From Geminicoccaceae bacterium (GTDB lineage: Bacteria > Pseudomonadota > Alphaproteobacteria > Geminicoccales > Geminicoccaceae), in NCBI GenBank assembly GCA_020445645.1, contig JAGRGG010000030.1:1-36816 (forward strand): DNA of 36,816 nt. The letters are read 5' to 3'. The notes below the pieces were generated by a model, which had not been told where the DNA came from, made no database searches, and saw only the letters and a list, made by a program, of their open reading frames with translations. Of the stretch, positions 2,048-27,050 are shown in pieces (positions within the stretch are counted from its first letter, which is position 1; every line of letters starts with the position of its first letter). Position numbers and translations under genes: made by a program.

Positions 2048-4015
2048 TTGGGGCTGCGCTTGGGCATCGACACAGGGGGCACCTTCACGGACGCCGTGCT
2101 TCTGGACAAGACGGGCGCCGTGCTGGCGGCGGCGAAGGCCGAGACGACCCGGGACGACCTGATCGTCGGCATCGACCGCGCCGTCGCCGCCGTGCTCGAC
2201 GGCCAGGACGGGCCGATCGACCTCGTCGGCCTGTCGACGACGCTGGCGACCAACGCCGTCGTCGAAGGGCGGGGCGGCAAGGCGGGCCTCGTCCTCATGG
2301 GGTTCGAGCCCGAGGTGCTCGATCGAGGGGGGCTGAGCGCGGCCCTGCGGGGTGCCCCGGTCGCCCACCTGAAGGGCGGCCACGACGCGAACGGGCACCC
2401 GCTCGCCCCCTTCGACCCGAACGTCCTGCGCGCGGCCGTTCAGGACATGGGAAAAGGCGTCGAGGCGCTCGCCGTCTGCGGCCAGTTCGCCGTCCGCAAC
2501 CCCGCCCACGAACTGGCCGCCGCCGGGGTCGCGGCGGAACTCGGCCTGCCCTGCACCCTGTCCTCGTCCCTTTCCGCCCGGCTCGACGCGCCGCGCCGGG
2601 CGCTCACGGCCCTCCTCAACGCGCGCCTCCTCCCCTTCATCGCCGGGCTCCTCGACGCGGTCGAAGGCCTCCTTCGCCGGCGCGGCATCGTCGCCCCCCT
2701 CATGGTGGTGCGCGGCGACGGCTCGTTCATGCGGGCCGAGGCGGCGCGGCTCCGCCCGATCGAGACCGTGCTCTCCGGCCCGGCCGCGAGCGTCGTCGGC
2801 GCCGGCCACCTCACCGGCCTCCCCGATGCCGTCGTCAGCGACGTGGGCGGCACGACGACCGACGTGGCCGTGCTGCGCGGCGGCCGCCCAAGGCTCTCCA
2901 AGGAAGGGGCCAGCGTCGGCGGCTGGCGGACGATGGTGGAAGCCATCGACATGGCGACGGTGGGGCTCGGCGGCGACAGCGCGCTCAGGCGGGACCGGGA
3001 CGGCGGCCTCGCGCTTGGCCCCGAGCGTGCCGTGCCCCTGAGCCTGCTCGCCGCCCTCCATCCGGGCGCGCTGGCGGAGCTGGAGGCGGAGCTTGCCAAG
3101 CCGGGATCGAACGTCCTCGACGCCCGCTTCGCCCTCGCCCAGGTGCCGGCCTCCGCCGACCCCGGCCTGTTCACGAGGAGCCAGCGCGGGCTGCTCGACC
3201 GTCTCGCCGAAGGGCCGCGCAGCCTCGCTACCATCGTCGAGCGCGACCACCTGGAGATCCCGCTTCGCCGCCTCGTCGAGCGGGGAATCGTCCTCCTCGC
3301 CGGCTTCACCCCCTCCGACGCCGCGCACGTGCTGGGCCTCCAGACCCTTTGGAGCCGCCCCGCCGCCGCGATCGGCGCCGCCCTGGAGGCGCGCAAGGGC
3401 TGGCCCGGCCTCGATCCCGGCGACGGCGAAGGGCTCGCCCGCCACGTCCTTGCCGAGGCGAGGCGGCGCAGCGCCGCCGTCCTCGTGGAGGCCGTCCTGC
3501 CCGAGGACGAACCCCTGCTCCCCCTCCTGCGCCCGCCTTTGCGCGGCCTCGTCCGCGCGGCGCTGGACGGGGGGCCGGGGGGCATGGCGCTCCGCCTCGA
3601 CCTGCCCATCGTCGCCGTGGGCGGCCCCGCCAAGCTCTTCTACCCGGCGGCCGCGGCGGCGCTCGACGCCCGCCTCGTCGTGCCGGAGTACTACGCCGTC
3701 TGCAACGCCATCGGCGCCGTCGCCGGCGAGGTGGTGCAGACGGCGACCCTCGTCGCCACGGGACGGGGCGAGGACAGCCTCACGCTCCACCTCCCCGACG
3801 GACCCGTCGAGGCCGCGAACCCCGACGAGGCCCGCCGCCGCCTCGAAGACGCCGCCGTCGTCCTCGCCCGCCGCCGCGCCGCCGAGGCCGGCGCCGCCGA
3901 GGTCGCTGTCGAAACCAGCGTCGAAGTGGCGCGCGCGACCCTCGACGGCAACCGCGAGATCGTCATGGAGATCCGGGTCACGGCGACGGCGCGGGGGCGG
4001 CCGGCGATAGGGTAG
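2048..4015 (+). CDS. Hydantoinase/oxoprolinase family protein, A-subunit type
   Basis: A 655-residue HyuA/oxoprolinase-family protein of the actin/hexokinase-like ATPase fold. The first phosphate loop reads GIDTGGTFTDAVLL at residues 6-19 and the second reads VSDVGGTTTDVAVL near residue 262, the two DxGGT motifs of the family; a GGPAKLFYP loop follows near residue 525. Such proteins couple ATP hydrolysis to opening of hydantoins, 5-oxoproline or related cyclic amides, or carboxylate ketones, normally with a B subunit. No B-subunit gene is present here, so the reaction is unassigned. The TTG start is chosen because GGGAGGGG lies just upstream and the DxGGT motif follows at once. Its stop is followed by a minimal ACGC-GAA-GCGT repeat. 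Confidence 0.88.
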   Translation: MGLRLGIDTGGTFTDAVLLDKTGAVLAAAKAETTRDDLIVGIDRAVAAVLDGQDGPIDLVGLSTTLATNAVVEGRGGKAGLVLMGFEPEVLDRGGLSAALRGAPVAHLKGGHDANGHPLAPFDPNVLRAAVQDMGKGVEALAVCGQFAVRNPAHELAAAGVAAELGLPCTLSSSLSARLDAPRRALTALLNARLLPFIAGLLDAVEGLLRRRGIVAPLMVVRGDGSFMRAEAARLRPIETVLSGPAASVVGAGHLTGLPDAVVSDVGGTTTDVAVLRGGRPRLSKEGASVGGWRTMVEAIDMATVGLGGDSALRRDRDGGLALGPERAVPLSLLAALHPGALAELEAELAKPGSNVLDARFALAQVPASADPGLFTRSQRGLLDRLAEGPRSLATIVERDHLEIPLRRLVERGIVLLAGFTPSDAAHVLGLQTLWSRPAAAIGAALEARKGWPGLDPGDGEGLARHVLAEARRRSAAVLVEAVLPEDEPLLPLLRPPLRGLVRAALDGGPGGMALRLDLPIVAVGGPAKLFYPAAAAALDARLVVPEYYAVCNAIGAVAGEVVQTATLVATGRGEDSLTLHLPDGPVEAANPDEARRRLEDAAVVLARRRAAEAGAAEVAVETSVEVARATLDGNREIVMEIRVTATARGRPAIG

Positions 4016-4016
4016 G

Positions 4017-4027
4017 ACGCGAAGCGT
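4017..4027 (+). repeat. Minimal ACGC...GCGT repeat (copy A)
   Basis: The 11-nt core ACGCGAAGCGT, extended to a 5-bp stem by flanking G and C, fills the 14-base gap between two convergent stop codons. It is the shortest form of a family whose longer members lie at 6688-6827, 22782-22809 and 27023-27050. Confidence 0.6.
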
Positions 4028-4779: not shown

Positions 4780-5388
4780 TTGGACCAGCCGAGAAAGCCC
4801 AGCACGCTCACGACCGACGCGCCCGAGGGCCGGCTGCCGCCGCGTCAGGTGCTGACCCGACGCTTCCCCGTCCTCTCGGCGGGGGCGGTCCCCGCGATCG
4901 ACCTCGAGACCTGGAGCTTCACCGTCTGGAACGGGCCGAGGCCGCTCGCCCGCTGGGATTGGGCCGGCTTCAACGCCCTGCCGCGCACGCGCTGGACGAA
5001 GGACATCCACTGCGTCACCCGCTGGTCGAAGCTCGACGTGGCCTGGGAAGGCGTCCTCGTCGGCGATCTGATGGAAGCCGCGGGCCTCGCCGCGCCGACG
5101 CCCTTCACGCTCGCGCTCTGCTTCGGCGACTACAGCACCAACCTCCCCTACGCCGACCTCGCCGACGGCAGGGCGATGGTCGCCACCCACGCCGAGGGCG
5201 AACCCCTCACCCCCGAGCACGGCGGCCCCGCCCGCCTCGTCGTCCCGCACCTCTACTTCTGGAAGAGCGCCAAATGGGTCCGCGGCCTGCGCTTCACCCG
5301 CCGCGACGAAGCAGGCTTCTGGGAGCTGCGCGGCTACCACATGCGGGGCGATCCGTGGAAGAACGAGCGCTACGACGTGGGCAAGTAG
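4780..5388 (+). CDS. Sulfite oxidase-like molybdopterin-binding oxidoreductase
   Basis: A soluble protein of about 202 residues carrying one sulfite-oxidase-type molybdopterin domain. The block DIHCVTRWSKLDVAWEGV near residues 71-88 contains the conserved cysteine expected to ligate molybdenum, and PHLYFWKSAKWVRGL followed by a terminal GYHMRGDPW.ERY closes the domain, as in small stand-alone members of the family. No heme domain, membrane anchor or Tat signal is visible, so it is probably cytoplasmic; partner and substrate are unknown. The start is taken as TTG at 4780 with GGAAG eight bases upstream; a CTG at 4762 is an alternative. The end is followed directly by a minimal repeat. Confidence 0.82.
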   Translation: MDQPRKPSTLTTDAPEGRLPPRQVLTRRFPVLSAGAVPAIDLETWSFTVWNGPRPLARWDWAGFNALPRTRWTKDIHCVTRWSKLDVAWEGVLVGDLMEAAGLAAPTPFTLALCFGDYSTNLPYADLADGRAMVATHAEGEPLTPEHGGPARLVVPHLYFWKSAKWVRGLRFTRRDEAGFWELRGYHMRGDPWKNERYDVGK

Positions 5389-5399
5389 ACGCGAAGCGT
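5389..5399 (+). repeat. Minimal ACGC...GCGT repeat (copy B)
   Basis: The same 11-nt core ACGCGAAGCGT as copy A begins the base after the TAG of the molybdoenzyme gene and ends five bases before the convergent Uma2 stop. Position relative to stop codons matches the other copies. Confidence 0.6.
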
Positions 5400-5403
5400 A
5401 ATC

Positions 5404-5958
5404 CTACGCCCCCAGCACGGCCGCGACGTTGAGGCCGATCCCCGGCGGGTCGAGCCGGAGCGTGCCGCCCTTGTGGATGCGGGTCCTGATGTCGCCGCCC
5501 TCTTCGCGGGCGTGGTGGATCAGGGCGCCGCGCCCGCCGTCGACGATGAGGTAGTGGCGCAGGCTCGGCACCTGGAAGTAGCCGTTCAGCTTCGCGCCCG
5601 TGTCGACGCCGCGCGAGCTTGGCGAGATCACCTCGACGACGACGAGGGGTTCGGGCGCCTCGACGGCGTCGCCCGGCAGGTCGGGGCCGCAATGGACCAG
5701 CGCGTCCGGCTCAAAGCTCGTCCGCTCGTCGATCCGCACGGCGACGCCGTCGCCCAGCGCCTCGCAGGCAAGGCCGGCGTCGCGGATCGCGTCGGTGAGC
5801 AGCCGCCATAGGCGCTGCTTCAGGCGCACGTGCGCCACCCGCTCCGGCGACATCGCCACGACTTCGCCGGCGTAGAGTTCGTAGCGCCCGCCCGGCTGGC
5901 GCTCGCACCAGTCGTAGAACTCGTCCACGGTCATCGACCGCTTGGCAGCGAGGTTCAT
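5404..5958 (-). CDS. Uma2 family endonuclease-fold protein (DUF820)
   Basis: A 184-residue Uma2-family protein with the PD-(D/E)XK nuclease-like core. FEPDALVHCG supplies the acidic D, and PLVVVEVISPSSRGVDTGAKL supplies the E and the distal K, followed by the conserved Y...HYLIVD strand. The start MNLAAKRSMTVDEF is preferred because GGAGAAGGGC precedes it; an upstream in-frame ATG at 5985 would add nine residues without its own good ribosome site. Function of Uma2 proteins is poorly defined; many lie in mobile or accessory regions. It is convergent with the molybdoenzyme gene and upstream of nothing on its own strand but the gap to that gene. Confidence 0.82.
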   Translation of the reverse strand: MNLAAKRSMTVDEFYDWCERQPGGRYELYAGEVVAMSPERVAHVRLKQRLWRLLTDAIRDAGLACEALGDGVAVRIDERTSFEPDALVHCGPDLPGDAVEAPEPLVVVEVISPSSRGVDTGAKLNGYFQVPSLRHYLIVDGGRGALIHHAREEGGDIRTRIHKGGTLRLDPPGIGLNVAAVLGA

Positions 5959-6010
5959 GCCCTTCTCCGTCCCGCCCTGTCTCATAAATGAGGCGCAAAA
6001 CGGGTGACGG

Positions 6011-6658
6011 CTAGGGCGACGTTCCCGCCAGCCCCGCCGCCGCCCTCGCCAGGCGCTCGACCTCGTCCCAGGCCCCCTCCTTCACGGCCTTCGCCGGCGC
6101 CACCCACGAGCCGCCAACGCAGAGCACGTTCGGCAAGGCGAGGTAGTCCTTCGCGTTCGCGGCGTCGATCCCGCCCGTGGGGCAGAAGCGGGCCTGCGGC
6201 AGGGGCGAGGCGAGCGACTTCAGGTAGGGCACGCCCCCCGCCGGCCCGGCCGGGAAGAACTTCAGGTAGCGGTAGCCCTGGTCCAGGAGGAGCATGATCT
6301 CGGAGGCGGTGGCCGCGCCCGGCAGGAGGGGCATCTCGCCGCCCCGCGCCGCCTCCATCAGGCCCGGCGTGGCGCCGGGGCTGACGGCGAACGCGCAGCC
6401 GAGCCCCTGAACGGCGTCGAACTGGTCGGGCATCCGCACCGTGCCCGCGCCGACGATGGCGCCCTCGACCTCGGCAATGATCCGCCCGATCGCCTCCGGC
6501 GCCGCCGCCGTCCGCAGGGTGATCTCCAGGACCCGCAAGCCGCCCTTGACCAGGGCGCGGGCGAGCGGCACCGCCGTCGCCACGTCGTCGATGACCATGA
6601 CGGGAACGACGGGGGCGGACCGCAGGATGGCCTCGATGTTCGGCTGAACGTCCCGCAT
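6011..6658 (-). CDS. eda: 2-keto-3-deoxy-6-phosphogluconate aldolase
   Basis: A 215-residue class I aldolase cleaving KDPG to pyruvate and glyceraldehyde 3-phosphate, the last Entner-Doudoroff step; family members also cleave 4-hydroxy-2-oxoglutarate. Counting from the ATG, the general-base glutamate of LEITLRT is residue 45 and the Schiff-base lysine of YLKFFPA is residue 133, the same numbering as the E. coli enzyme. GAGTV at 70-74 and CPTGGI are also present. GGGAG precedes the ATG. It is the last gene of the sugar unit but is separated from edd by a 140-nt palindromic element, so its expression may depend on readthrough or RNA processing there. Confidence 0.96.
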
Positions 6659-6687
6659 GGTTTTTCTCCCTTAGGGCTGTGCCAGTT

Positions 6688-6827
6688 ACGCTTCGCGTCC
6701 GCTGGCGCGGGGCCTTTTTTCCTCTTTTTTCGCCTGTTGACCGTGCTTGGCTCGAATGTCTGAACCAAGCACGGTCAACAGGCGAAAAAAGAGGAAAAAA
6801 GGCCCCGCGCCAGCGGACGCGAAGCGT
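6688..6827. repeat. 140-nt palindromic element: perfect 63-bp inverted repeat, 14-nt loop
   Basis: The arms 6688-6750 and 6765-6827 are exact reverse complements over all 63 positions, separated by CTCGAATGTCTGAA. The arms begin ACGC, end GCGT, and contain two T6 tracts on one side (A6 on the other) next to a GGCGCGGGGCC block. The outer 26-27 nt of each arm recur almost exactly at 22782-22809 and 27023-27050. The element lies 29 bases upstream of the eda ATG and eight bases after the edd TAG. There are no target duplications I can recognise and no coding capacity. In RNA it would form a long perfect duplex. Confidence 0.95.
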
Positions 6828-6835
6828 GGTTCCCT

Positions 6836-8671
6836 CTACGCCGCCTCCCCGAGCGGCAACGTGCAGGCGCCTTCGTCCGCCGGCCCGACGAGCCGGCGGA
6901 AGCCGCCGAACAGTTCGCGGCCGAGGCCGACGTGGTGGTGCGACAGGTCGGCCGTGACCGGCTCGCGCGCCGCCCACTCCCCCGCGTCGACCAGCGCCTG
7001 GATCGTCCCGTTCACGGCGTCGACCCGGATCGGGTCGCCGTCCCTGACGCGGGCGATCGGGCCGCCGTCCGCCGCCTCCGGCGTGAGGTGGATCGCGGCC
7101 GGGACCTTGCCGGACGCCCCCGACATCCGCCCGTCGGTGACGAGGGCCACCTTGAGGCCCCGGTCCTGGAGCACGGCGAGGCTCGGCGTCAGTTTGTGGA
7201 GTTCCGGCATCCCGTTCGCCTTCGGCCCCTGGAAGCGGACCACGGCGACCGTGTCCGAGACGATCTCGTTGTTGTCGAACGCCGCCTGAAGCTCGTTCTG
7301 GTCGTGGAAGACGCGGGCCGGGGCCTCGATCACGTGGCGGTCGGGCCTGACGGCCGAGACCTTGATGACGGCGCGGCCGAGGTTGCCCTTGAGCAGCTTC
7401 AGGCCCCCGGTCGGGCTGAAGGGCCTCGCCGCCGTCGCCAGGATCGCGCCGTTGCCGCTTGCTGCGGCGCCGTCGCGCCAGACGAGGCGGCCGTCCTTCA
7501 AGAAGGGCTCGGCCGTGTAGCGCCCGAGCCCGCCGTCGCCGGCCACCGTCCGCACGTCGGGGTGGAGGAGCCCGGCGCCCAGAAGCTCGCGGATCAGGCA
7601 GCCCATGCCGCCCGCCGCGTGGAAGTGGTTCACGTCGGCGAGCCCGTTCGGGTAGATGCGGCAGAGGAGCGGCACGGTCTCGGCCAAGTCGGCGAGGTCG
7701 TCCCAGGTGAGGCGGATGCCGGCGGCGCGGGCCATCGCCACGAGGTGCAGCGTGTGGTTGGTCGAGCCCCCGGTCGCGTGCAGCCCGACGACGCCGTTGA
7801 CGACCGCCCGCTCGTCGACCAGTTCGCCGATCGGCAGGAAGTCGTTGCCGGATGCCGTGATCTCCAGGACGCGCCTCGCCGCCGCCTTCGTCAGCTCGTC
7901 GCGCAACGCCATCTGCGGGTTGACGAAGGACGAACCCGGCAGGTGCAGCCCCATGATCTCCATGAGCATCTGGTTCGTGTTCGCCGTGCCGTAGAAGGTG
8001 CAGGTGCCGGGGCTGTGGTACGAGGCGGCTTCCGCTTCGAGCAGCCGGTCGCGCCCCACCTTGCCCTCGGCGTAGAGCTGGCGGACCTTCGCCTTCTCGT
8101 CGTTGGGCAGGCCGGACGGCATCGGCCCCGCCGGGACGAAGACCGCGGGGACGTGGCCGAAGCTGAGGGCGGCCATCAGGAGCCCCGGCACAATCTTGTC
8201 GCAGACGCCCAAGTAGAGCGCGCCGTCGAACATGTCGTGGCTCATGGCGACGGCGGTGGCGAGCGCGATCACGTCGCGGGAGAAGAGGGACAGTTCCATC
8301 CCGTCCTGCCCCTGCGTGACCCCGTCGCACATGGCGGGGACTCCGCCCGCCACCTGCGCGACCCCGCCCGCCTCGCGCACGGCCTCCTTGATGATCGGGG
8401 GAAAGCGGCCGTAGGGCTGGTGCGCCGAGAGCATGTCGTTGTAGGCGGTGACGATGGCGATGTTGGGCTTCGCGTCCCCCATCAGCCCCGCCTTGTCGTC
8501 GGGTCCGCAGGCGGCGAAGCCGTGGGCGAGGTTGCCGCAGGACAGGCCCCGGCGCTTCGGCCCCCTGGATACGGCTTGCCGCACGCGCTCCAGGTAGGGC
8601 TCTCGCGTGTCCCGCGAGCGGCGGACGAGGCGCTCGGTGATCTCGCCGATGCGGGCGTTCAGCGTTGCCAT
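6836..8671 (-). CDS. edd: 6-phosphogluconate dehydratase
   Basis: A 611-residue IlvD/Edd-family dehydratase that converts 6-phosphogluconate to KDPG in the cytoplasm. The three cysteines expected to bind the labile Fe-S cluster are visible: [10 protein letters not shown] (C115), GVCDKIVPG (C157) and [13 protein letters not shown] (C224). Length equals the usual Edd length. GGAGG lies five bases before the ATG, and the gap to the upstream zwf stop is 22 bases, so the two are cotranscribed. The TAG stop lies eight bases from the 140-nt palindrome. IlvD is excluded because of context and the typical Edd N-terminus. Confidence 0.96.
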
Positions 8672-22781: not shown

Positions 22782-22809
22782 ACGCCCCGCGCCGGCGGAC
22801 GCGAAGCGT
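22782..22809 (+). repeat. 28-nt ACGC...GCGT repeat (copy E)
   Basis: This copy starts ACGCCCCGCGCC, has G instead of A at position 13, and ends GCGGACGCGAAGCGT. It fills the 32-base gap between two convergent stop codons; its final T is the first base of the antisense stop of the DUF2628 gene. It matches copy F at 27 of 28 positions and the ends of the 140-nt palindrome. Confidence 0.8.
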
Positions 22810-27022: not shown

Positions 27023-27050
27023 ACGCCCCGCGCCAGCGGACGCGAAGCGT
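27023..27050 (+). repeat. 28-nt ACGC...GCGT repeat (copy F)
   Basis: It begins ACGCCCCGCGCCAGCGG and ends ACGCGAAGCGT. Its last 26 bases are identical to the right end of the 140-nt palindrome (6802-6827). It sits just after the DUF1232 stop and before the TRAP binding-protein leader, with both genes on the plus strand, so it is not limited to convergent gaps. Confidence 0.8.

Follow-up and report, generated by a model that had tools for sequence, protein, structure and literature searches.

Why should two adjacent and co-directional genes, edd and eda, be separated by a long and perfect palindrome, and what kind of element is it? The question arises from a window of 36,816 nucleotides (the whole stretch of DNA analysed here), which belongs to a draft genome of a Geminicoccaceae bacterium comprising 3.78 Mb in 291 contigs. 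The reading that we prefer, with a probability of about 65%, is that the feature represents one doublet of a high-copy, lineage-specific REPIN-like (REP-doublet) family, which is mobile and terminator-like and whose arms are kept identical. This reading starts from direct observations, namely the copy number, the doublet structure, the covarying arms, the location 3' of stop codons and the related genera that lack the insert. The locus is composed as follows:

6836..8671, minus strand: edd, phosphogluconate dehydratase (TIGR01196, 1025.6 bits), with 8 nt between its stop codon and the element
6688..6827, no strand assigned: the 140-bp doublet copy of the palindromic element family, defined by its complementary arms and by the family in the own genome
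6765..6827, minus strand: right arm, equal to the left-arm sequence read on the minus strand (63/63 complementarity)
6751..6764, no strand assigned: 14-nt loop CTCGAATGTCTGAA, partly self-complementary as in other copies (arm comparison)
6688..6750, plus strand: left arm (63/63 complementarity)
6011..6658, minus strand: eda, KDPG/KHG aldolase (TIGR01182, 242.3 bits), with its ATG 29 nt after the element

The gap between the two genes therefore holds the 140-bp element, with 8 nt on its edd side and 29 nt on its eda side. Comparison of the arms within the window (6688-6750 against 6765-6827) finds all 63 of 63 positions complementary on either side of the 14-nt loop; this recomputation confirms the perfect inverted repeat described in the original prediction. 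When one mismatch is allowed, the pairing grows to 65 of 66 positions, taking in three more positions inside the loop and leaving a gap of 8 nt. Outwards, it ends exactly at 6688 and 6827, with T/G, T/G and G/T immediately outside. The RNA hairpin of the 140-bp element is predicted at -138.9 kcal/mol on the plus strand and -142.7 kcal/mol on the minus strand. The named Edd relatives retained share 64-72% identity, the best being that of Inquilinus limosus (72%), and a second, weaker aldolase-family match occurs elsewhere in the genome (contig C160).

The arm sequence is widely dispersed. Its 63 nt have 62 matches in the own genome, many of them as inverted pairs, and its outer 21 bases have 338 matches at up to two mismatches, compared with none for the reversed control. 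Because of these counts a chance origin of the 63-bp inverted repeat is excluded, and the feature is seen to be a dispersed small palindromic element, as had been supposed from its sequence. In the ~422 kb sampled, no 12-mers are more over-represented than fragments of the 21-bp end, the outer 27 bases are near-identical at hundreds of sites, and many of the draft contigs end inside element copies. An Rfam search of the window gave no match.

The copies fall into size classes, comprising single hairpins of 28, 34 and 43 bp and inverted doublets of about 118-143 bp, the window copy being one of the latter. The 28-bp hairpins account for 24 of the 68 complete elements gathered, a collection guided by matches to the window arm and end, whose class ratio is not the genomic ratio. 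The unit of the family is the 28-bp hairpin, of the form ACGCTTCGCG-TCCGCTGG-CGCGRRGCGT. The long form is built of two such units in inverted orientation, with T-tracts and a likewise palindromic inner arm to link them, and the family elements end in ACGCTTCGCGTCCGC. Four further copies lie in the window:

27023..27050, minus strand: 28-bp single-hairpin family copy (L057)
22782..22809, minus strand: 28-bp single-hairpin family copy (L056)
5385..5399, minus strand: minimal copy, ACGCTTCGCGT hairpin, flanked by a convergent pair of stop codons (12-mer and gap analyses)
4013..4027, minus strand: minimal copy, GACGCTTCGCGTC, flanked by a convergent pair of stop codons (12-mer and gap analyses)

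Three matches that fall within genes, at 8465, 15946 and 32100, were attributed to chance. Directly downstream of eda, a gene for a Uma2-family putative endonuclease (5404-5985, minus strand) has a minimal element copy at its 3' end. Elsewhere in the own genome, a long copy in contig C203 is seemingly interrupted, with its halves about 2 kb apart (L052:200-350 and L049:200-345) and junctions GGGGGTGTCTGC.../...GCGGACACCCCC, the picture expected if an insertion sequence had jumped into it.

The placement of the copies relative to genes is far from even. Among 153 distinct end copies, 86 follow the stop codon of a long ORF at a distance of 0-14 nt, where about 11 would be expected (p ~3e-57), a statistic which, like the others on placement, rests on ~422 kb and selected loci. 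Within the 422 kb, 17 sites fall to 47 convergent gaps, 21 to 251 co-directional gaps and 2 to 46 divergent gaps, the gap types being taken from our own simple codon-model gene calls, trained on codon-position G+C, and not from curated annotation. The copies are thus located mostly in convergent or co-directional gaps and rarely in divergent ones.

Examination of the arms for transcription signals reveals one 10-pair hairpin per arm, the two facing opposite ways and each with CTTTTTT behind it (terminator scan):

6792..6825, minus strand: terminator-like hairpin and T-tract first met on leaving edd, with the hairpin at 6825-6802 and the tail CTTTTTTCCT (scan and growing-transcript folds)
6690..6723, plus strand: terminator-like hairpin and T-tract in the opposite direction (scan)

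Each arm had been likened to half a terminator; instead, each contains a whole terminator-like hairpin with its T-tract, one for each direction. At the T-tract position, 51 of 58 long-form arms retain five or more T within eight bases, and the 28-bp singles have no T-tract. In folds of the growing transcript, the small hairpin appears first and the long duplex only once the second arm has been made. Since a complete terminator-like hairpin with T-tract is present in each arm, whichever the direction, transcription of edd probably ends mostly in the first arm, before the 63-bp RNA duplex forms, and the copies probably represent two-way transcription stop and mRNA-end signals. The 28-bp singles may serve only for 3' end protection, or they may act on translation, by analogy with the E. 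coli REPs located up to 15 nt from stop codons, which are reported to do so (PMC12306157).

These folds bear directly on the proposal that the element is an RNase III site or attenuator, in which the full 63-bp duplex of an edd-eda transcript is cut and the two messages are separated. The very stable predicted fold, the adjacent and co-directional position of edd and eda and the precedent of the comparable Neisseria NEMIS transcripts, which are RNase III substrates (PMC2229807), would all suit such a role. The terminator-like hairpin with its T-tract is, however, met before the second arm is transcribed, and 17 of the 40 classified sites lie between convergent genes, where there is no common message to split. 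We regard this role as unlikely; RNase III would be expected to act on read-through RNA only.

No promoter-like site was found in 6500-7000. Were most edd transcripts to stop in the first arm, eda would have to rely on read-through or on an unrecognised promoter. In the mechanism that we propose, RNA polymerase leaving edd would meet the first REP-like hairpin and then U6 and would mostly stop, as it would on arrival from the other side. The element would thereby give edd a defined and protected 3' end and lower the expression of eda, while any RNA that reads through would fold into the 63-bp duplex and could be attacked by RNase III.

The same locus was compared in five related genomes in which eda directly follows edd. 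In these the gap ranges from a few to about 40 nt, or the genes overlap, and no palindrome lies between them. The 140-bp element splits edd from eda here and is absent from the same spot in related genera, as the original prediction had anticipated. Being made between genera, this empty-site comparison shows that the element was gained in this lineage, without defining precisely where it ends.

Searches of other genomes agree with a narrow distribution. In 60 relatives, only three stray matches were obtained at up to two mismatches, spread over two other genomes, and in about 384 other genomes drawn from the class, a single match in one genome was obtained at up to one mismatch. An exact 26-mer had no match in the GTDB 220 contigs, a set that may omit the own genome or near relatives, and no other genomes of the same genus turned up in the sampled set. 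At the available sampling, the sequence matches place the element family in this lineage alone.

Other palindromes were seen in these genomes. Genus g10 of the same bacterial family has its own unrelated 78-bp palindromes (CGAGCCACCCGCACACCCCGCCC...; L134:7050-7130 and L136:14300-14380 in genome G009, and also in G019), which match some tens of times per genome, on either strand; Y1 transposases had no match in G009 or G019. In genome G020 (L165:10589-10670), a hairpin of about 20 bp is built on TGTCGCGTATAA/TTATACGCGACA and is unrelated to the element family.

The two arms of a doublet vary together. In 25 doublets, the mismatch between arms of the same copy is 0.070, compared with 0.118 +/- 0.0066 when the right arms are shuffled among copies, and the observed value was never reached by shuffling (0/20,000). 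Five copies, the edd-eda copy included, show zero arm mismatch, and one copy is a perfect 138-bp palindrome without any loop. The inner arm past the first T-tract also covaries, which is more than a pure terminator would need. Such covariation fits selection for the hairpin no better than it fits repair of one arm on the model of its partner, which template switching is known to perform (PMC8794818). Recent arrival and selection, the two options originally offered for the survival of the palindrome, are thus joined by a third, since copying of one arm from the other also preserves identity.

The premise that such palindromes are unstable through SbcCD cleavage is likewise weakened. A model of SbcC had no match in the own genome and found the protein in 11 of 14 control genomes, and that of SbcD matched over its first 90 positions only, scoring 53 bits, below the cut-off of 77.65. 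Because the draft is ~96% complete, the absence of SbcC is likely but not certain. Its lack can explain the survival of long palindromes; since most of the bacterial family is also without SbcC, the absence of the nuclease is permissive but not sufficient.

A candidate enzyme for moving the family was sought among Y1 transposases, of which two were found in the own genome. The longer one, a RAYT in contig C78, was rejected as the cognate enzyme on the grounds that it is flanked by different, GGGGACAC repeats, and the second, which is IS200-like, has no family copy nearby. Neither is thus a cognate RAYT flanked by family repeats, although one could have been missed in a draft broken at many copies. 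The C78 gene (L060:2300-3500) has several direct GGGGACACGATACAAAATT-type repeats upstream and related repeats downstream; these surroundings resemble the TIRYT type (PMC3733652) and do not match the element family.

The family could alternatively have descended, as a MITE, from a DDE-type insertion sequence; its arms would then be the terminal repeats, and its gene-end placement only a residue of purifying selection. Its size, inverted repeats and dispersal match those of MITEs (PMC2229807), but no direct target-site duplication is visible in the listed flanks of copies, which tend instead to a symmetric GRWY...RWYC, and the abundant single 28-bp hairpins suit REPs better; we consider this origin quite unlikely. 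Covariation in the flanks beyond the ends, at most ~2-2.5 SD above shuffles, was treated as a common GRWY consensus. A non-mobile origin, whereby structural 3'-end hairpins under RNA-level selection spread by rare copying and compensatory changes, would agree with the location after stop codons and with the arm covariation, yet it is very improbable in view of the near-identity of the outer 27 bases across so many sites and the absence of the sequence from other genera of the bacterial family. That a short-read assembler made the mirrored arm is scarcely credible: the fragmented draft, with its contig ends inside copies, and the central runs of N in two retrieved copies (L032 and L038) might suggest it, but many doublets are palindromic despite differing arms, centres and unrelated flanks, and edd and eda flank the element on its two sides, as in relatives.

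In the REPIN-like reading, the element would have arrived at edd-eda as a non-autonomous mobile element moved by another enzyme. Its arms would be held identical by recent copying and/or template-switch repair from the opposite arm, and the palindromes would be tolerated because no SbcCD nuclease is detectable. More tentatively, and with considerable doubt, the family may represent a REPIN-like element, each half of which is a complete terminator, that has spread without a RAYT in a lineage that lost SbcCD, with perfect palindromes maintained via template switching and with unrelated sequences having evolved independently across genera of the bacterial family, the 78-bp palindromes of genus g10 being the case in point. 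If this were true, head-to-head REP doublets could turn into perfect palindromes once SbcCD was lost. Palindromes that are both long and perfect, the longest being the loop-free one of 138 bp, are kept at many sites in a genome without detectable SbcC, and the suggestion that SbcCD restricts REP homodimers (PMC3733652) becomes testable by comparison. The edd-eda copy would also provide a case of a REP-like mobile doublet that ends transcription both ways and could split an operon.

Among known systems, REPINs, which are inverted REP doublets (Bertels and Rainey 2011, PMC3116915), come closest. As in REPINs, two inverted conserved ends enclose a spacer, single and doublet forms share a common end (here the 28-bp singles and the doublets), extragenic copies are many, and the whole unit folds as one hairpin with compensatory changes between its sides. 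Unlike REPINs, the family has no cognate RAYT found, its sequence is unrelated, its arms are complementary over 63 bp including the spacer, and the T-tract makes each half terminator-like.

The GTAG/CGTC REPs are high-copy repeats 3' of genes, near stop codons, in convergent and co-directional gaps, and form head-head dimers (PMC3733652); those of the CGTC type come mostly from alphaproteobacteria and have no transposase of their own (Di Nocera et al. 2013, PMC3733652). Copy number, head-head dimers and location 3' of genes in the same two gap types were all found here too. A GTAG or CGTC tag is not at the unit end in most copies, where the flank consensus is GRWY, and a GACG flank (the complement of CGTC) is a minority at most, with C at -2 in 25 and G at -1 in 26 of the 153 copies. 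The stem of the 28-bp unit has 10-12 pairs, compared with 8-9 in these REPs, whose first two pairs are A-T, and the family forms perfect homodimers, which have been suggested to be disfavoured where SbcCD acts (PMC3733652). Because the GTAG/CGTC tag and a cognate RAYT were both sought and not found, the family is labelled REPIN-like, after its architecture and covariation, and placed outside the described REP families.

Like YPAL of Yersinia and NEMIS of Neisseria, the elements are repeats in the 100-170-bp range whose transcripts form long hairpins (PMC2229807). Their sequence is unrelated to either, and neither the 3-26-bp target duplications of YPAL nor the TA ends with duplications of NEMIS (PMC2229807) were recognised here. 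Finally, as in bidirectional intrinsic terminators, a GC-rich hairpin is directly followed by a T-tract each way in the doublets, though not in the 28-bp singles, and the copies are enriched between convergent genes. In contrast to those terminators, the element has two separate hairpins across a long inner palindrome rather than one common hairpin, and its unit is dispersed as a repeat family.
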